From Taibaiella soli (GTDB lineage Bacteria; Bacteroidota; Bacteroidia; Chitinophagales; Chitinophagaceae): a stretch of 64,000 nucleotides of DNA. Made by a program: the position numbers and the translations under genes. The notes beneath the pieces were generated by a model. That model had not been told where the DNA came from, made no database searches, and worked only from the letters and a program-made list of their open reading frames with translations. Position 1 is the stretch's first letter. Each line of letters opens with the position of its first letter. Shown here piece by piece: positions 57 through 8,358 of this stretch. The DNA is taken from positions 187,902-251,901 of the forward strand of contig NZ_QKTW01000025.1 of the NCBI RefSeq assembly GCF_003236175.1. The letters run 5' to 3'.

Positions 57-500
57 ATGCACAATTTCTCATTTTGCATACTTGTACTAATCGCACTGTT
101 GATCACCTCTGCATCAAAAGCTCAGGTGACAGCAGCCGACATTCCATCTGAATCCTGGGTAAGAGGCACACGTAAAATAACCGATGCATGCCTCCGGGTC
201 ACTGTTCTTGACGTCTGGAAAGACTCTTGCACAGACTGCACTTCGACTGGTGAGCTATTCATAGTGAGGTGTGCCGTCCGTCGTCGATATTTTAATAAGA
301 AAAGTACAACCATTCCTGATAGCTTCACTTACATGACCATATTGTCACCAGACTTCTATCGACATTCAAAAGATGTAATTGTGTTTTTACATTTCGATAA
401 AACACCTCGAAATACGCAATACGGGAAACAGCGATGGTTCGCAGTAGACGGCAGTCAATTTCTATACTCCCCCAAAACAGAGTCTTATATTTTTAAATAG
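57..500 (+). CDS. Secreted protein of unknown function
   Basis: This 147-residue protein starts with a clear signal peptide (about residues 1-22, hydrophobic core followed by SASKAQ), so it is probably exported. The mature part carries a cysteine cluster (WKDSCTDC, then a third Cys in VRCAV) and short beta-rich stretches. I do not recognise a family. It lies 32 bases from the convergent 3' end of the phosphopantetheinyl transferase gene. Nothing links it functionally to that gene. The reading frame is well supported by the signal peptide and by the absence of a competing frame of similar quality. Confidence 0.6.
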   Translation: MHNFSFCILVLIALLITSASKAQVTAADIPSESWVRGTRKITDACLRVTVLDVWKDSCTDCTSTGELFIVRCAVRRRYFNKKSTTIPDSFTYMTILSPDFYRHSKDVIVFLHFDKTPRNTQYGKQRWFAVDGSQFLYSPKTESYIFK

Positions 501-532
501 ACAACCGCTCCAGATAATAAGAGGAAATAGAA

Positions 533-1180
533 TTACAAATCAGCTTTCAGCAAATCAATCACCGCTATCTCTTCACAACTCACCGTTTCTCGCTCGGTCA
601 TAGCCACACAGGCCTGATAGCCGTCAGCGATATACAACTCTGTAAGATGATAAATCTGCCCTTCCGCTTCCACTTCATCCCCACAAACATCCACCCATGA
701 AAGATCTGCGTAAATTCCTTTGCCAATTGCCTTCAACAGAGATTCTTTGCGCGTCCAGAAACGATAAAAATTATTAAGTTCATTGCGCCCGCCCGTGATC
801 TGTTCCCATTCCTGCTGTGTAAAAAAATCTTTAAACTCCTCCACATCCACATCCTGAACTTTTTCGATATCCACGCCTATCCTGCCTTTTTTTGTGGCGG
901 CACAGACCGATATCTCACCGGAATGCGCTATATTAAAGTCAAAATCATTTCCGAAATAAGGCCGGAGGTATTCATCGAAGCGCAAATAGTCCAAAGCCCA
1001 GGGAAGAGAATAACCGGACAATATTTGTTGTAACAAAACTTTTCCGCAAGCCGAGCGCTGCTGTTCACCTATATCCTGAAAATTATTCAGGTGCGAACGC
1101 AGTTCCGGAGGCAACAATGACAATAGCTGTTTTTGCTGTTTTTTTTCAATCGGTATTTTAGTCCAGTAGCAGAGCGGCAT
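533..1180 (-). CDS. 4'-phosphopantetheinyl transferase, Sfp type
   Basis: This enzyme moves the phosphopantetheine arm of CoA onto a serine of a carrier protein, turning it from apo to holo form. The 215-residue length fits Sfp-type enzymes. The diagnostic Mg/CoA-binding motifs are present: NIAHSGE near residue 83, GVDIE (Asp104, Glu106), and FWTRKESLLKAIGKG from residue 141 (the W-x-x-K-E-S motif). It is transcribed divergently from the NRPS-like gene at 1322, with 141 bases between the starts, so its natural partner is very likely the carrier domain of that enzyme (Ser552). It could also serve a fatty acid or other carrier protein. The family call is secure; the partner is inferred from context. 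Confidence 0.92.
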   Translation of the reverse strand: MPLCYWTKIPIEKKQQKQLLSLLPPELRSHLNNFQDIGEQQRSACGKVLLQQILSGYSLPWALDYLRFDEYLRPYFGNDFDFNIAHSGEISVCAATKKGRIGVDIEKVQDVDVEEFKDFFTQQEWEQITGGRNELNNFYRFWTRKESLLKAIGKGIYADLSWVDVCGDEVEAEGQIYHLTELYIADGYQACVAMTERETVSCEEIAVIDLLKADL

Positions 1181-1256
1181 AAAAACAATTTTGAAACGAA
1201 CAACTCAAAAAGTTTTGACAAAGTCTGTCGAACTTTATAAAACTACAACATAAATG

Positions 1257-1288
1257 TTGCTGACGTAAAGTTATTTAAGTTATCATTG
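1257..1288 (+). promoter_or_regulatory. Candidate promoter of the NRPS-like gene
   Basis: A TTG at 1257-1259 is followed after 21 bases by TATCATTG (1281-1288), which is seven of eight to the Bacteroidota -7 box TAnnTTTG when the n positions are counted as matches. The start codon follows at 1322. A purine-rich stretch (GGAAAAAGAAG) lies directly before the ATG and may act as a ribosome binding site. This is a pattern match only. Confidence 0.35.
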
Positions 1289-1321
1289 CGCCTAATAGAG
1301 GAAGTATAAGGAAAAAGAAGT

Positions 1322-4300
1322 ATGAATTTTGTCAGTATCGTTAAAGGCCCCAACAGACCGGATCTGATTCGCGAAGAAACACTAGCGGAAATGTTCCGTC
1401 AAACGGCTGCTGCCCACCCTCAAAATATCGCTTTGATATTTGGGAAGCAGTCGCTTACCTATGCCCAGCTTGACCAGTGGAGCGATGCCGTTGCCGTTTA
1501 CCTGCATGAAAAAGGAATAGGCCGCGGAGCGAAAATTGGTTTCTGGTGGCCACGCAGTATCGAATTGCATGTTGCCATTCTCGGTACCATCAAAGCCGGC
1601 GCCTCCTATGTGCCGCTCGATCGCGAAATGCCTGCGGAACGTGTGGAAATTGTGATGGAAGAAGTAAAAGCCGATGCATGCTTCAGCCAGGACCCGCTCA
1701 ATGTGCACTGCCCTTTACTGACTGTTCCGCCAAGCCCCGCGGCTGACACAAAATTCGAAATTACCGAAGGCCCACTTCCTGAAAACTACGCATACATCTT
1801 ATACACTTCGGGCAGTACCGGCAAACCAAAAGGTATTCCGATCAATCACCGCCAGATCTGCCATCTGGTGCGTGCCGAAGAAAGTATTTTCAACATTCAG
1901 CCTGCCGATAAAGTATATCAGGGTTTCTCCGTATCATTTGATATGTGGTGCGAGGAAACATGGGTAAGCTACCTCGTGGGCGCTACGCTTTGGGTTGCAG
2001 ATGCTACCACTGCCAAATCTATCGACGAGCTCGACAGTGTACTGCGCGATAATAAGATTACTATTCTCCATGCTGTGCCAAGTTTATTGGCGGTAATGGA
2101 TGACAATATTCCTTCGTTGCGATTAATCAACGCCGGAGGCGAAGCTTGTACCAGACAAGTGCTGGATCGCTGGGCCACGCCACAGCGGGAATTTTTCAAC
2201 AGCTACGGTCCAACTGAAACAACGGTAAGCGCAACGATGGCAAAACTCAAACCGGGCGATGTCATAACGATCGGCCAGCCGTTGCCAAACTACAACCTCG
2301 CTGTTGTCGATGAACATTTTGCACCATTGCCTTTTGGCGAGCGCGGCGAACTCATCATTACCGGACCAGGCGTTTCTGACGGATACGTAAATCTGCCTCA
2401 ACTCACTGCTGAAAAATTCGTCAACAAACCGGAAACACTACACGAATTACCTGGCGACCGTTTATACCGCACTGGTGATGCCGCTGTGATTACCCCGGAT
2501 GGAGCTGTTGACTTTCAGGGCCGTATCGATGATCAGATCAAACTGCGTGGTTATCGCATTGAGCTCGGCGAAATTGAAACAAGACTGAGTCATTTGCCAA
2601 ACGTTGCTGCCGCCGCAGTTGCCGTAAAGAAAGACGCGAATGACCAGGATCAGCTAGTCGGCTATGTGGTTCCCGAAGATGAAGTGAATTTCAGCGAAAG
2701 CGAACTACGTCTGGAGCTGGCTAAATTCCTGCCGCCATATATGGTTCCCGGCACCATCGTGTCATTGAAAGAAATGCCACGTATGCCAAGCGGAAAGATC
2801 AGCCGCAAAGCATTACCAGTACCGGAATCATTTGCATTCAAAGCAGATACCGATACTGGCTCCATAGATAATACGGCTCCGATGCCGGCGCGGGTATTGC
2901 AGGTGTTACACAAAATGTTCCCAGGTAGGGAAATTGATCTCCAACAGGATTTCTTCACAGATCTAGGGGGGCACTCATTGTTGGCTGCTGCACTGGTTTC
3001 CCGTTTACGACGTGATGCAGGTGTACCACAGGCTTCGTTAAAAGATGTGTATTTGCATCGTCCGTTGGCCGTATTAGCTGCCAATTGGGAAGTGAAAGCG
3101 ACGCAAACCGAAAAGAAAGAAAAAGCAGCATTCAACAGCGTACCTACCTATCGTTTTTTGCTTTGCTGGCTCGCGCAAACGGTTTCATTATTATTTTTCT
3201 TCGGCCTTTTCGCCGTGCAGATATTTATACCATACCTCGGCTATTATTATATAGCGGAAGATGATCCGAACAAACTAGGAACAGCCATTTTTACGGCGTT
3301 GTCCATGTTCTGTATTATACCACCGTTTTTCTCTGCATTAAGCATCATTATAAAATGGCTGGTAATCGGGAAATTCAAAGAAGGCGATTACCCGCTCTGG
3401 GGCAGTTATTATTTCCGCTGGTGGTTTGTGAAAACCATGCAGCGTCTGCTGCCTTCTCAATTCCTGAATGGCACGCCGCTTTTTCCTACTTACCTCCGTC
3501 TGCTTGGTGTGAAAGTTGCGAAGGACGCACAACTGAGTAATATGACTATTGGCGCAGAAGATCTGGTAACGATTGACAGCGATGCAAGCCTTAGTTCGCA
3601 GACGGTAATTAATAATGCCTGGGTAGAAGACGGTTTGCTTAAAATCCGTTCCACATATATTGGCGCACACGCCTACATTGGCAGTAGCGCGGTGATTGCA
3701 GGTGATGCACGTGTAGAAGACTGGGGTGAATTGCAAGATTTGAGTTATTTGCCAGCCGGTAAAGTCATCGGCGAAGCGGAAGTATGGCAGGGAAGTCCGG
3801 CGCAACTGAAAGAGAAAAAGTCGGTGGCTGATCTCCCGCAACCTTTGCAAGTTTCAGCATTTACACGAGGCAAGTACAGCATGTTTTTCCTGCTTACTTT
3901 GCTGGTATTCCCATTCGTGGTTTTATTACCGTTGTTGCCTACGGTCCTTATCATTCACCACATGGATGAAGCGGCGCCAGCGTACAACTTTAATTACTTC
4001 AGTGTAATGCCGGCATTGGCATTGGCCTACATCATTCTGTTCGCTTTCGTAACCATTTTCCTGACACGCTTTTTACAAGCGGGCATCAGACCCGGAAAAT
4101 ATCCGATCTATAGCTTGTTTTACTTACGGAAATGGTTTGCCGACCAGTTGATGTCGCTATCATTAATTGTACTCCACCCGATTTACGCAACGCTGTTTGT
4201 CAGTAATTTCTTCCGTGCACTCGGTGCCAAAATTGGTAAAAACACAGAGATATCCACTGCAAGTAGCGTAACACACCCGTTGCTGAAAATCGGTCATGAT

Positions 4301-5266
4301 GCTTTCGTGGCTGATGCCGTCACATTAGGAGAAGCCGATGTGCGCGGTCAGCAATTAATTCTGAGCAATACCATTATCGAGGATACCAGCTTTGTGGGTA
4401 ACAGTGCCTTAATTCCGCAAGGTTATCATCTCGGTTCCAATATGCTGATTGGCGTACTTTCTACGCCGCCAAGTCAGGAACAACTCAACGAAAACGCCGC
4501 TCATGATTGGTTTGGTTCGCCGGCCATAGCATTGCCACGTCGTCAGCAAAGTAATCCGTTCCCGGAAGAACTTACTTCCAGACCCTCGCCTATGCGCAGA
4601 TTTGCTCGTGGCGTGGTGGAGTTTATCCGTATTATTCTTCCGGAAACAGCAATTCTCTGTTGCAGTATCCTGTTCATCGCATACACACATGATCTGGTAA
4701 CACAAAAACCTTTGTGGCAAATCCTGCTCAATTTCCCGCTGTATTACCTATTCTTCATGGGTATTCCGGCATTCGCCATTACCATGGCTTTAAAATGGTT
4801 ATTTGTAGGTAAATACAAACCGCAACAAAAACCGATGTGGACCTGGAAAGTTTGGCGCAGTGAGGCTATCACTTCTACTTACGAAGCTCTGTCAGTACCG
4901 TTCTTGCTCGATTACTTGCGCGGCACGCCATGGTTGCCGATTTTCCTTCGCTTCCTTGGCGTTAAAATCGGCCGCAGGGTTTGGATGAACTCTACCGATA
5001 TCACCGAATACGACATGGTCTCTATTGGCGACGATAGTGCCTTAAATGAAGACTGCGGACCGCAAACGCACTTATTCGAAGACCGCGTCATGAAAGTTGG
5101 TCCGGTGAAAATTGGTGAACGTTGCAGCGTAGGCGCACGTACCATCATTCTCTACGATAGCGAAATCGGCAACGACGTAAAACTCGAAGCACTTTCACTC
5201 GTGATGAAAGGTGAAAACCTTTCGCCGTCCACAAACTGGATTGGCAGCCCGGTACAACCGAATTAA
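1322..5266 (+). CDS. NRPS-like, membrane-anchored amino acid polymerase/ligase (Pls-like)
   Basis: Single-module, 1314-residue nonribosomal peptide synthetase-like enzyme. Residues 1-500 form an adenylation domain that should activate an amino acid as its adenylate: YTSGSTGKPKG at 161, FDMWCEE at 206, SYGPTETT at 294, YRTGD at 382, GRIDDQIKLRGYRIELGEIE at 400 and PSGKISRKALP at 489. A carrier domain follows with DLGGHSLLA; Ser552 takes the phosphopantetheine arm. There is no condensation or thioesterase domain. Instead, residues 605-1314 hold three repeats of a transmembrane helix pair followed by a left-handed beta-helix (about 610-830, 850-1075 and 1100-1314), each repeat ending in W-x-GSP. 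This is the architecture of epsilon-poly-L-lysine synthetase and the 'NRPS terminal domain' family. Acidic residues in the A4 pocket region hint at a basic substrate. The product is unknown. Confidence 0.9.
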   Translation: MNFVSIVKGPNRPDLIREETLAEMFRQTAAAHPQNIALIFGKQSLTYAQLDQWSDAVAVYLHEKGIGRGAKIGFWWPRSIELHVAILGTIKAGASYVPLDREMPAERVEIVMEEVKADACFSQDPLNVHCPLLTVPPSPAADTKFEITEGPLPENYAYILYTSGSTGKPKGIPINHRQICHLVRAEESIFNIQPADKVYQGFSVSFDMWCEETWVSYLVGATLWVADATTAKSIDELDSVLRDNKITILHAVPSLLAVMDDNIPSLRLINAGGEACTRQVLDRWATPQREFFNSYGPTETTVSATMAKLKPGDVITIGQPLPNYNLAVVDEHFAPLPFGERGELIITGPGVSDGYVNLPQLTAEKFVNKPETLHELPGDRLYRTGDAAVITPDGAVDFQGRIDDQIKLRGYRIELGEIETRLSHLPNVAAAAVAVKKDANDQDQLVGYVVPEDEVNFSESELRLELAKFLPPYMVPGTIVSLKEMPRMPSGKISRKALPVPESFAFKADTDTGSIDNTAPMPARVLQVLHKMFPGREIDLQQDFFTDLGGHSLLAAALVSRLRRDAGVPQASLKDVYLHRPLAVLAANWEVKATQTEKKEKAAFNSVPTYRFLLCWLAQTVSLLFFFGLFAVQIFIPYLGYYYIAEDDPNKLGTAIFTALSMFCIIPPFFSALSIIIKWLVIGKFKEGDYPLWGSYYFRWWFVKTMQRLLPSQFLNGTPLFPTYLRLLGVKVAKDAQLSNMTIGAEDLVTIDSDASLSSQTVINNAWVEDGLLKIRSTYIGAHAYIGSSAVIAGDARVEDWGELQDLSYLPAGKVIGEAEVWQGSPAQLKEKKSVADLPQPLQVSAFTRGKYSMFFLLTLLVFPFVVLLPLLPTVLIIHHMDEAAPAYNFNYFSVMPALALAYIILFAFVTIFLTRFLQAGIRPGKYPIYSLFYLRKWFADQLMSLSLIVLHPIYATLFVSNFFRALGAKIGKNTEISTASSVTHPLLKIGHDAFVADAVTLGEADVRGQQLILSNTIIEDTSFVGNSALIPQGYHLGSNMLIGVLSTPPSQEQLNENAAHDWFGSPAIALPRRQQSNPFPEELTSRPSPMRRFARGVVEFIRIILPETAILCCSILFIAYTHDLVTQKPLWQILLNFPLYYLFFMGIPAFAITMALKWLFVGKYKPQQKPMWTWKVWRSEAITSTYEALSVPFLLDYLRGTPWLPIFLRFLGVKIGRRVWMNSTDITEYDMVSIGDDSALNEDCGPQTHLFEDRVMKVGPVKIGERCSVGARTIILYDSEIGNDVKLEALSLVMKGENLSPSTNWIGSPVQPN

Positions 5267-5328
5267 AGCAATGGTTAATGGTCAATGGTGAATAGTGGTC
5301 AAAGGTGAAACGTCAAACGTCAAATGCT

Positions 5329-5354
5329 GTAGAGACGTTGCATGCAGCGTCTCC
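5329..5354. repeat. GTAGAGACGTTGCATGC palindrome
   Basis: Inverted repeat with arms GAGACG and CGTCTC around TTGCATGCAG. It resembles a short palindrome that recurs in intergenic regions of Bacteroidota and cyanobacteria (recalled, not searched). Only one copy was seen in this window. Confidence 0.5.
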
Positions 5355-5426
5355 AGATAACACGAGGCCGTAGTGCCGCCGCGAGAAAAAAACTTACCCT
5401 CTTGCGAAAAACTCACGCACGTTGGA

Positions 5427-5460
5427 AGTTCTCCTCCTTTGAAGGAGTTAGAGGAGGCTT
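5427..5460. repeat. CTCCTCC-GGAGGAG dispersed palindrome, copy 1
   Basis: The core GTTCTCCTCCTTTGAAGGAG is followed by TTAGAGGAGGCTT. The same unit recurs at 10883, 62934 and, inverted, 62757. Three of the copies are preceded by a degenerate GCGAAAA/CGCAC stretch. Confidence 0.65.
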
Positions 5461-5560
5461 CAAGTTTTAAGTTTTAGGCAACACCCATCCTACCGTAGTG
5501 TCGCCGTGAGAAAAAATGCTGCTTTGCTCCTTATGTAGCTTTGCGGAAAATCCACTCGTG

Positions 5561-5589
5561 TTTGGAAAAACGTTAGGCTTTTAGCTTTG
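5561..5589 (+). promoter_or_regulatory. Promoter with Bacteroidota consensus
   Basis: TTTG at 5561-5564, a 17-base spacer, then TAGCTTTG at 5582-5589. This matches the Bacteroidota sigma-ABfr type promoter (-33 TTTG, -7 TAnnTTTG) well. The downstream start codon is at 5634, giving a leader of about 40 bases. Confidence 0.5.
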
Positions 5590-5633
5590 TGTATTTCCCC
5601 CATTTTTCGTAAATTAGTAGAAATTAAACGCAT

Positions 5634-6353
5634 ATGAACCTGAGTGAAACCTGGTTTATAGAAGGGGATATCGATTTCGAGCTGCAGAAATATAAACTAC
5701 TCGCCTACTTACAGGAAGTTCAGACTTATTTCAACGAAACGAAGCTCTATCCGAAGCTTTCCGATCTCATTTTCCATTACAACAACCTTACTTCTTTCCG
5801 CAAGAATAAGAAGCTGTTGCAGGACCATTTTCCTAAACGTATTGACGAAGTAAATGCCGAAAAACTAGAACTGGTGTATCAGCAGATGCTCGCCGATAGC
5901 GAATTGATGCAGGAACTGGAAAATATTATTGCCTTCGCTATCGCCAATATCCGACCGATCATTGAAGACGGAACAGGCATCTATGAATTTGTAGAAAAGC
6001 AACTGCATATTGAACCCGTTGGCATTTTACCGCTGTACAAAAACGAAGGCTATGTATTGCTGCGTTACGGCAGCGTACAGGAAGTGCGCGTCTATTCTTA
6101 CACCATTACCCTTTACGAGCACAAAGACGCGCGTTACAGAGGTATAAAAATGGATCTCATCAGCAGTATCGACGGCGGCGTTATCTACACCTCCGAAATG
6201 ATCAAACGCGAGATTATCCGTAATAATCCACAGATGCCTAATCCGGCTGTTTATAGTATCGATACAGAATATAGCTTCCCGCTGGATGAAACTTTATTAC
6301 CTATTGCTAAACGTCTTTTAGTACAATACATAGGCCGGGAAAAGGCGGCATAA
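5634..6353 (+). CDS. Conserved-looking cytoplasmic protein of unknown function
   Basis: A 239-residue soluble protein without signal peptide or membrane segment. The N-terminal half (about 1-115) is charged and probably helical. The C-terminal half (about 130-239) is beta-rich, with PLYKNEGYVLLRYG and VYSYTITLYEH. I do not recognise a named domain; it looks like a Bacteroidota housekeeping hypothetical. A good promoter precedes it, so it is probably transcribed on its own. Its closeness to the NRPS-like gene may be coincidental, because a repeat-rich gap separates them. Confidence 0.75.
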   Translation: MNLSETWFIEGDIDFELQKYKLLAYLQEVQTYFNETKLYPKLSDLIFHYNNLTSFRKNKKLLQDHFPKRIDEVNAEKLELVYQQMLADSELMQELENIIAFAIANIRPIIEDGTGIYEFVEKQLHIEPVGILPLYKNEGYVLLRYGSVQEVRVYSYTITLYEHKDARYRGIKMDLISSIDGGVIYTSEMIKREIIRNNPQMPNPAVYSIDTEYSFPLDETLLPIAKRLLVQYIGREKAA

Positions 6354-6438: not shown

Positions 6439-8358
6439 ATGAATAAACTTATGCTGCTAATTTCGGCAGGGATATTGTTTACATACAGCAGTTGTAAACA
6501 ACCCGAAGCCAAAGAAACCCCTGCGCCGCACATCGACATGAAGTTATTCTTCAAAAATCCGGCTAAAGCAGGCTTCCGTATTTCCCCCGACGGACAATAT
6601 TTTTCCTACCGTGCCGACTACAAAGGCAAAACCAACATTTACGTTCAAAAAACAACCGACACAACGCCAGTACGCGTTACTAACGACACATTGCGCAGCA
6701 TCTCCTCCTATTTCTGGAAAGGTGATCGCATCGTATATGCCCAGGATATTGGCGGCGATGAAAACTTCCAGGTCTTTTCGGTAAAACCGGATGGATCAGA
6801 CATGAAAGCGCTGACGCCATTCCCTGGTTTCCGTTCGGACGTGTATGACGATTTCCGTTTTATTCCCGGAAAGGAAAAATTAATGCTGGTCGGTATTAAT
6901 AAACGTAACAAAGAATATTTTGATCCTTATTTGCTGAATATCGAAACCGGCGAACTGACGCTGCTTTACGACAACAAACAAAACTTCGACAGCTGGTATC
7001 CGGACAATACAGGTATGCTTCGGATGGCTACCAAAACAGATGGCGTCAACATTACTTATCTATATAGAAATACCGACAAAGACAGTTTTCAGACCCTATT
7101 GACCACCAATTTTAAAGAAGGGTTTTATCCACAGGCTTTCGATGCTGAAAATAAAACCATCTATGTGATGAGCAATCTGGGCCGTGATAAACTGACTTTA
7201 GTACGCTATGATCCGGTGGCCAAAAAAGAAGTAGAAGAATTGTTTAAAAATAACGATTACGATCTGCAAGGCATCGACTATGACCGCAAAACCAATAAGC
7301 TGATCAGCGTGAGCTGGGAAGGCGAAAAAACGGAAGAACATTATTTCGACAAAGATCGTGGCGACCGCATCGCTGAGCTGAAAAAAAAGTTTCCGGGTTT
7401 TGATGTGATGCTCACTACCTACGACGACAATATGACCAAAGGCATCGTCTGGACAGGAAATGATGTAACACCGGCAAAATATTATCTCTACGATTTTGCC
7501 ACACGCGATGCAAAGGAAGTTGCAAATGCCTATCCATGGCTTAATGCAGAAGACCTTGCACCAATGAAACCAATTCAGTACAAAACCAGAGATGGCCTAA
7601 CCGTACACGCTTACCTTACATTACCGAAAGGTGTTGCTGCTAAAAATCTGCCAGTGGTCATTAACCCACATGGCGGTCCTTGGGCCAGAGATGGTTGGGG
7701 GTACGATCCCGAAGTACAGTTCCTGGCCAACAGAGGTTATGCTGTCTTACAAATGAACTATCGCGGTAGTACAGGTTATGGAAAACAATTCTGGGAATCT
7801 TCATTCAAACAATGGGGCAAAAAAATGCAGGATGATATCACCGATGGTGTTGAATACCTAAAAAAAGAAGGCATCGCGGATCCTAAGCGTATTGCCATTT
7901 ACGGCGGCAGTTACGGAGGTTACGCAACGTTGGCGGGTGTTACATTCACTCCCGATCTATACGCCTGTGCCGTGGATTATGTAGGCGTGAGCAATCTGTT
8001 TACGTTTATGAAAACAATTCCACCATACTGGAAACCTTACCTCGATCAGTTTTATGAAATGGTAGGCTCGCCAACTAAAGACAGTCTATTGCTGGCCGAA
8101 GCTTCGCCGGTTTTGCATGTCGATAAAATAAAAACGCCGTTGTTTATTGCCCAGGGCGCTAATGATCCGCGCGTGAATAAAGCTGAAAGCGATCAGATGG
8201 TTGCTGCGCTGAAAGCACGTGGCGTTGATGTACAGTACATGGTAAAAAACAACGAAGGGCATGGCTTTCACAATGAAGACAATCGTTTCGATTTTTATGG
8301 CGCTATGGAACAATTCCTGGCAAAATATCTGAAACCGCAAGCGGTAGCTGAGAAATAA
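6439..8358 (+). CDS. S9 family prolyl oligopeptidase / acylaminoacyl-peptidase-like lipoprotein
   Basis: This 639-residue serine peptidase is probably a surface or periplasmic lipoprotein: the N-terminus runs hydrophobic into TYSSC (lipobox, Cys19). Residues about 35-360 look like a WD/PD40-type beta-propeller. The C-terminal alpha/beta-hydrolase domain holds GGSYGGYA with nucleophile Ser491, Asp576 in GANDPRV and His608 in EGHGF, so the triad is complete. Family members remove dipeptides or acyl-amino acids from short peptides. It stands alone, followed by a strong hairpin terminator at 8412. Confidence 0.92.
   Translation: MNKLMLLISAGILFTYSSCKQPEAKETPAPHIDMKLFFKNPAKAGFRISPDGQYFSYRADYKGKTNIYVQKTTDTTPVRVTNDTLRSISSYFWKGDRIVYAQDIGGDENFQVFSVKPDGSDMKALTPFPGFRSDVYDDFRFIPGKEKLMLVGINKRNKEYFDPYLLNIETGELTLLYDNKQNFDSWYPDNTGMLRMATKTDGVNITYLYRNTDKDSFQTLLTTNFKEGFYPQAFDAENKTIYVMSNLGRDKLTLVRYDPVAKKEVEELFKNNDYDLQGIDYDRKTNKLISVSWEGEKTEEHYFDKDRGDRIAELKKKFPGFDVMLTTYDDNMTKGIVWTGNDVTPAKYYLYDFATRDAKEVANAYPWLNAEDLAPMKPIQYKTRDGLTVHAYLTLPKGVAAKNLPVVINPHGGPWARDGWGYDPEVQFLANRGYAVLQMNYRGSTGYGKQFWESSFKQWGKKMQDDITDGVEYLKKEGIADPKRIAIYGGSYGGYATLAGVTFTPDLYACAVDYVGVSNLFTFMKTIPPYWKPYLDQFYEMVGSPTKDSLLLAEASPVLHVDKIKTPLFIAQGANDPRVNKAESDQMVAALKARGVDVQYMVKNNEGHGFHNEDNRFDFYGAMEQFLAKYLKPQAVAEK

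Follow-up and report, generated by a model that had tools for sequence, protein, structure and literature searches.

PosA of Acinetobacter baumannii is the proven synthetase of delta-poly-L-ornithine, a polymer whose synthetic 12-mer is antifungal, and before its description bacterial cationic isopeptide homopolymers had been reported only from actinomycetes, according to the authors' abstract (PMC10522769). This study concerns a related enzyme in the Bacteroidota: a Pls/PosA-family non-ribosomal peptide synthetase (NRPS) that lies beside a divergent gene for an Sfp-type 4'-phosphopantetheinyl transferase in a 64,000-nucleotide stretch of the Taibaiella soli genome (assembly GCF_003236175.1, contig NZ_QKTW01000025.1, positions 187,902 to 251,901), hereafter the window. 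The source genome amounts to 5.4 Mb in 32 contigs and is 98.7% complete.

I propose that this synthetase activates L-ornithine and joins it via the side-chain amines into delta-poly-L-ornithine, with its carrier domain primed by the neighbouring transferase. Judged from the sequence evidence set out below, I would give this reading a probability of about 0.68.

The synthetase and its family

The synthetase reading frame (positions 1322 to 5266, forward strand) encodes 1314 amino acids comprising an adenylation domain, a carrier domain and a membrane terminal domain. Pfam recognises AMP-binding (residues 25-355) and AMP-binding_C (417-492), which together make up the adenylation domain (1394 to 2797), followed by the PP-binding carrier domain (residues 531-568, positions 2912 to 3025; PF00550, 26.6 bits, cut-off 20.8), whose attachment serine S552 in the motif DLGGHSLL is kept in all 24 rows of the compared alignment. 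No condensation or thioesterase family was found in the synthetase by Pfam at E<=0.001, which corroborates the initial annotation, a model's reading of the bare sequence, in its claim that the enzyme has adenylation and carrier domains without either of the other two. The same annotation had likened the C-terminus to poly-lysine synthetase, and the profile search places it inside this family: residues 618-1311 (694 residues, positions 3173 to 5254) match the NCBIfam model TIGR02353 (Pls/PosA) with 665.5 bits (E=8.9e-200, cut-off 423.1) over model positions 2-695 of 695.

Comparing the adenylation core with solved structures enabled a ranking of its relatives. For chains with a single adenylation domain, PosA (8g95) was closest with 356.8 bits and epsilon-poly-lysine synthase (7wew) came next with 243 bits, while the two-domain chains of linear gramicidin synthase scored 375.7 bits in total but only 204 in the better domain. 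PosA also came first when the specificity region alone was compared (165 bits vs 102). Among the matches listed (120 of 2551), the nearest organism-named protein belongs to a Chitinophagaceae bacterium (79% identity in the terminal region), and proteins of Chitinophaga and Mucilaginibacter are already auto-named 'Pls/PosA family non-ribosomal peptide synthetase' by NCBI. By profile and alignment, the window synthetase is an ordinary member of the Pls/PosA family.

Substrate pocket and predicted product

Pocket positions were read from a HMMER alignment to PosA (8g95/8g97) and from a family alignment, which gave DMEHNGSVSK for the window synthetase (D207, M208, E211, H250, N270, G272, S294, V302, S303 and K492). 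The PosA code is DMEHNGTVSK (PMC10522769); nine of the ten residues are identical, and the sole change, threonine to serine at PosA position 304, keeps the hydroxyl. In PosA, D217 and E221 are essential, T304A costs 33-fold and S313A 183-fold, while M218 sets chain length and is replaced by alanine in Pls and by phenylalanine in the diaminopropionate enzyme (PMC10522769). All five of these substrate contacts are retained in the window enzyme, identically or hydroxyl for hydroxyl: D207, M208 and E211 supply the D-M-E part, and S294 and S303 the side-chain hydroxyls at the equivalents of 304 and 313.

L-ornithine is the predicted monomer on this evidence, and delta-poly-L-ornithine, rather than poly-lysine, is the predicted product, because the pocket agrees with that of PosA at nine of ten positions and the changed residue keeps the needed hydroxyl; that the product would be a delta-linked homopolymer is family knowledge. 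The product class of the initial annotation, a homo-poly(amino acid), can thus be narrowed by prediction to one polymer. Four arginase-superfamily genes in the same genome are a possible source of free ornithine.

The pocket is shared widely. DMEHNG[S/T]V[S/T]K was found in 50 of the 52 readable sequences from 56 loci of the same bacterial family (window included; four not fully readable), the two exceptions being DMEHKGTVTK and the lysine-like DAESIGSVIK, and in 76 of the 77 readable sequences from 80 named-genome loci (three not fully readable; exception DMESNGSVSK); the two sets overlap, with some genomes common to both. As anchors, the A. baumannii homologue (L193) returned the published PosA code and the annotated Streptomyces pls (L194) returned DAESIGTVVK.

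The product could instead be another cationic homopolymer (epsilon-poly-L-lysine or gamma-poly-diaminobutyrate, for example), given that PosA crystals also bind D-ornithine and L-lysine, that the serine-for-threonine change might alter selectivity, and that the family includes one more distant member with a lysine-like pocket. However, M208 would be the size gate that separates ornithine from lysine (alanine) and from diaminopropionate or diaminobutyrate (phenylalanine), and the window pocket sides with PosA rather than with the Streptomyces examples (DAESIGTVVK, DFECLSAVTK). I consider another polymer improbable. The lysine-like member itself (L099; 1524 amino acids, 35% identity overall, DAESIGSVIK) is a distant relative in the same family and a possible epsilon-poly-lysine synthetase in the Bacteroidota.

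The terminal domain and a candidate catalytic histidine

The initial annotation had seen three membrane/beta-helix units in the C-terminal part, and these are borne out. The pieces 600-850, 850-1090 and 1090-1314 match one another by BLASTP (24%, 29% and 20% identity; E=2.4e-15, 4.6e-24 and 8.8e-8), and an AlphaFold2 model built from 59 sequences (mean predicted local distance difference test score 90.5, predicted template modelling score 0.90) contains three long-helix pairs, behind each of which comes a series of short strands resembling a beta-helix. Hydropathy, the repeats and the model together give six predicted membrane helices in three pairs (613-647/652-682, 863-884/891-918 and 1090-1128/1131-1162). 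The helix pairs and beta-helix units of the model agree with the terminal domain of PosA as described (PMC10522769). Matches to left-handed beta-helix acyltransferases extend the picture: unit 1 resembles hexapeptide acyltransferases (maltose and galactoside acetyltransferases), and profile matches of unit 3 include a sugar N-acyltransferase, acetyltransferases and gamma-carbonic anhydrases.

When 24 sequences were compared (17 Bacteroidota enzymes plus seven anchors, PosA-like and Pls-like ones among them), a single histidine of the ten in the window enzyme's terminal domain proved invariant: H1250, which belongs to the unit 3 motif QTHLFEDR (residues 1248-1255, positions 5063 to 5086). Units 1 and 2 contain no invariant histidine. 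Because hexapeptide-type acyltransferases commonly use a histidine base, I propose H1250 as a candidate catalytic base that would activate each amine as it arrives, while units 1 and 2 would play a structural part. Epsilon-poly-lysine synthesis requires all three tandem domains, according to earlier work cited in PMC4668381, and this requirement fits a single composite active site.

A terminal domain with an acyltransferase fold might also move a single ornithine or a short chain to some other acceptor (a lipid, sugar or peptide), with no free polymer being made. This is rather improbable: characterised members of the same architecture make free homopolymers (PMC10522769, PMC4668381), and the families that follow the transferase as neighbours within 5 kb of the 56 synthetase loci (SDR-like by eye, 8; SpoU, 7; GNAT, 7) reveal no common lipid or glycan pathway.

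The neighbouring transferase and its linkage to the synthetase

The transferase gene (positions 533 to 1180, reverse strand, 215 amino acids) encodes a protein of Sfp size (about 200-240 amino acids), matches PF01648 with 59.9 bits (cut-off 25), and its coordinates confirm the annotated arrangement, divergent from the synthetase with a gap of 141 bases. Aligning 18 transferases that adjoin synthetases shows D104, E106, W142, E146 and K150 to be invariant; these residues presumably correspond to the metal and coenzyme A residues of Sfp. By profile, alignment and tree the small gene is an Sfp-type phosphopantetheinyl transferase.

The synthetase is present in 57 of 394 sampled genomes of the same bacterial family at E<=1e-60, with 56 over the curated cut-off, and its named carriers include Chitinophaga, Mucilaginibacter, Pedobacter and Chryseobacterium; if the proposal is true, delta-poly-L-ornithine would be a common Bacteroidota product. 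Flanks were examined in 56 of the 57 genomes, the one left out having its gene divided between two contigs. A transferase adjoins the synthetase at 21 of these loci (15 divergent upstream, five convergent downstream and one downstream on the same strand), with contig ends cutting one of the 21 adjacent transferases and six of the 56 synthetase genes; positions from a whole-genome PF01648 search were matched by hand to 19 of the 21. Rather than being kept with other carrier proteins instead of the synthetase, the transferase is the commonest synthetase neighbour (20 loci by BLAST clustering within 5 kb, followed by families with 8, 7 and 7). In the overlapping set of named genomes it stands beside the synthetase at 23 of 80 loci. 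Beyond the Bacteroidota, the two genes form operons on plasmids of the Alphaproteobacteria Rhizobium and Sphingomonas, and the Sphingomonas operon also includes a GNAT gene.

Trees of both proteins, which are approximate and in which the tool flagged long branches, point to a shared but unstable association. Of 63 transferases, the 22 adjacent ones fall into one weakly supported group (91/85) together with seven unlinked ones, and the adjacency label changes three times on this tree vs a mean of 18.2 after shuffling, with none of 500 shuffles as low. Mapped on the tree of the 57 synthetase rows, linkage switches state 11 times, and the pairing has therefore been lost or gained repeatedly. A profile of the adjacent type found matches of at least 120 bits in four of eight synthetase-positive genomes among 59 near relatives (Fisher p=0.0045 against the synthetase-negative ones), a comparison that is partly circular as the four positives are themselves profile rows. 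The transferase pairing is real and recurrent, not obligate. The idea of the transferase as an exclusive partner of the synthetase is not upheld by the adjacency counts.

The genome itself offers a further perspective. No condensation domain was found in it (98.7% complete), and therefore no conventional NRPS is evident there. Of its other PF01648 transferases, one falls into the same weakly supported clade as the window transferase, as one of the seven unlinked members, and sits 4.9 kb away from the 3' end of a gene for a polyketide synthase, while the other falls into a clade of unlinked transferases only. The impression is that every large carrier enzyme of this genome is provided with a transferase of its own.

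The neighbouring transferase could nevertheless be a general enzyme that stands there by chance, with the synthetase primed by any transferase in the cell. Most loci (35 of 56) have no adjoining transferase, the genome holds two others, and stretches of A. baumannii, Azospirillum, Rhodococcus and two Streptomyces contain no transferase-like frame within 2.5-3 kb of the synthetase. Against this, the 21 adjacent transferases are far above the 0.05-0.13 that a rough chance estimate predicts for 56 loci (PF01648 genes number 0-5 per genome, mean 2), they cluster on the tree, and the second transferase of the same clade lies near the polyketide synthase, which leaves the window transferase as the likely partner of the synthetase. 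A chance neighbour thus appears unlikely.

Acetyltransferase genes were seen near several relatives of the synthetase. Seven of the 56 loci (L070, L087, L088, L092, L093, L097 and L098) share a homologous gene in the same orientation as the synthetase, with its start at -33 to 232 bases downstream. The one copy scanned, that of L092, gave a match to the GNAT acetyltransferase family; none was seen beside the window synthetase. Such a downstream GNAT might acetylate the polymer for self-protection. Two genes after the Rhodococcus Pls/PosA gene, a heparan-alpha-glucosaminide N-acetyltransferase domain protein is annotated (L197, 7751-8986), which makes a third lineage with an acetyltransferase near the synthetase. 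The end of the annotated Streptomyces pls is overlapped by an M1-family metallopeptidase gene (L194, 6873-8285) whose product is possibly polymer-degrading.

Proposed mechanism and points against it

What the sequences show directly (the order of the domains, membership of the family, the residues of the pocket, the predicted fold, an H1250 that is invariant among the compared rows, and the counts of linked loci) is consistent with the following course of delta-poly-L-ornithine synthesis. First, the divergent transferase would place phosphopantetheine on S552. The adenylation domain would then select L-ornithine. By analogy with the measurements on PosA, D207 would contact the alpha-amine, E211 and the hydroxyls of S294 and S303 would contact the delta-amine, and M208 would restrict chain length. 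The amino acid would be loaded on the synthetase's own carrier domain. The three fused membrane/beta-helix units may act as one pseudo-trimeric acyltransferase in which H1250 of unit 3 deprotonates the attacking delta-amine, and iteration would yield a cationic oligomer.

Several points weigh against this reading. The change to serine at PosA position 304, which is not one of the mutants seen described, could shift substrate preference, and the genes matching the arginase superfamily may instead encode agmatinases or formimidoylglutamases. The many loci without a transferase beside the synthetase weaken the case for a dedicated transferase, as do the two further PF01648 genes in the genome and the three of 51 synthetase-negative relatives that hold a transferase of at least 120 bits with the adjacent-type profile. 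Adjacent transferases are only 16-34% identical to that of the window (19 family members) vs mostly 46-69% for the synthetases, and this greater divergence could mean turnover. The role of H1250 is argued from conservation, and a mutational study of the three Pls domains, reportedly that of Kito 2013, may bear on it either way.

A bolder version would have the Bacteroidota equipped with a widespread delta-poly-L-ornithine machine, in which a quickly evolving transferase would serve as dedicated switch for a hexapeptide acyltransferase that is embedded in the membrane and has turned into a polymerase, and H1250 of unit 3 would run all chain growth. This is a tentative idea that I find possible though doubtful. 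Should the proposal hold, the compact, possibly self-priming two-gene unit and its one candidate catalytic histidine would open the polymerisation mechanism to direct tests in a laboratory strain.

Flanking sequences and other genes of the genome

The 141-base intergenic region (1181 to 1321) presumably holds both promoters. A scan of positions 400-5700 for sigma-70-type promoters gave four sites vs 8.3 expected, and a Bacteroidota-type pattern gave 11 sites vs 12.2 expected over the whole window; neither had a site within the intergenic region.

Three flanking genes, encoding a protein of 147 amino acids (57-500), one of 239 amino acids (5634-6353) and an S9 peptidase (6439-8358), were considered as extra members of the system and rejected as they are not conserved neighbours: among the reading frames of 55 other family loci and the 80 named loci, no homologues were found at E<=1e-5, and only the window's own copies matched. 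The 239-amino-acid protein has no Pfam or NCBIfam match and is absent beside the synthetase relatives examined. The S9 prolyl-oligopeptidase has a lipoprotein-like start by eye and a weak NCBIfam resemblance to lasso-peptide isopeptidase (72.9 bits, cut-off 400); its candidacy as a polymer-degrading enzyme was dropped, as it is not conserved beside synthetase relatives. Elsewhere in the genome, the polyketide synthase (L250, 2462-18313) is a protein of 3425 amino acids with three ketosynthase domains, five carrier domains and a thioesterase, accompanied by a separate acyltransferase, an acyl-CoA dehydrogenase and the PF01648 transferase nearby.

Comparison with known systems

Automatic annotation of Bacteroidota Pls/PosA enzymes is already known; new here are the ornithine prediction for the clade of the window, the measured partial linkage of the transferase and the candidate catalytic residue. 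In the open-licence literature searched, no report was found of a characterised Bacteroidota Pls/PosA enzyme, of its pairing with a transferase or of an ornithine prediction for this clade. The main text of PMC10522769 contains no word beginning 'Bacteroid' or 'Flavobacter', and what PMC8949500 and PMC4361855 say of phosphopantetheinyl transferases, in the passages found, includes nothing on poly-lysine synthetase.

The closest described system is PosA (PMC10522769; PDB 8g95-8g98), which shares with the window synthetase the domain order, the Pls/PosA terminal domain and nine of ten pocket residues; with its homologue L193 the window enzyme shares 45% identity over the adenylation domain and 38% over the terminal domain. 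In a FastTree tree of 57 rows, with few anchors and long branches, the group of PosA-like L193, Azospirillum and Rhizobium is placed as the sister of 49 Bacteroidota-family rows out of 50, the remaining one, L099, branching earlier. The differences lie in the host phylum, in the serine for threonine at position 304, and in the transferase next door, whereas PosA is a single-gene operon (PMC10522769). The epsilon-poly-L-lysine synthetase Pls (Streptomyces albulus, PDB 7wew) and the Streptomyces pls L194 have the same adenylation and carrier domains and six membrane helices round three tandem domains, but the terminal domain of L194 is 30% identical to that of the window and its pocket is the lysine one.

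The poly(L-diaminopropionate) synthetase of S. albulus PD-1 has the same architecture, with three C-terminal domains of 22.6-26.1% mutual identity vs 20-29% in the window, yet it uses another monomer and is reported to have seven membrane helices vs six in the window model (PMC4668381). Finally, the non-alpha poly-amino acid (NAPAA) biosynthetic class, a term used in PMC13291983, has in common with the window synthetase a single module with a Pls/PosA-like terminal domain, and genome miners would probably file the enzyme under this class.
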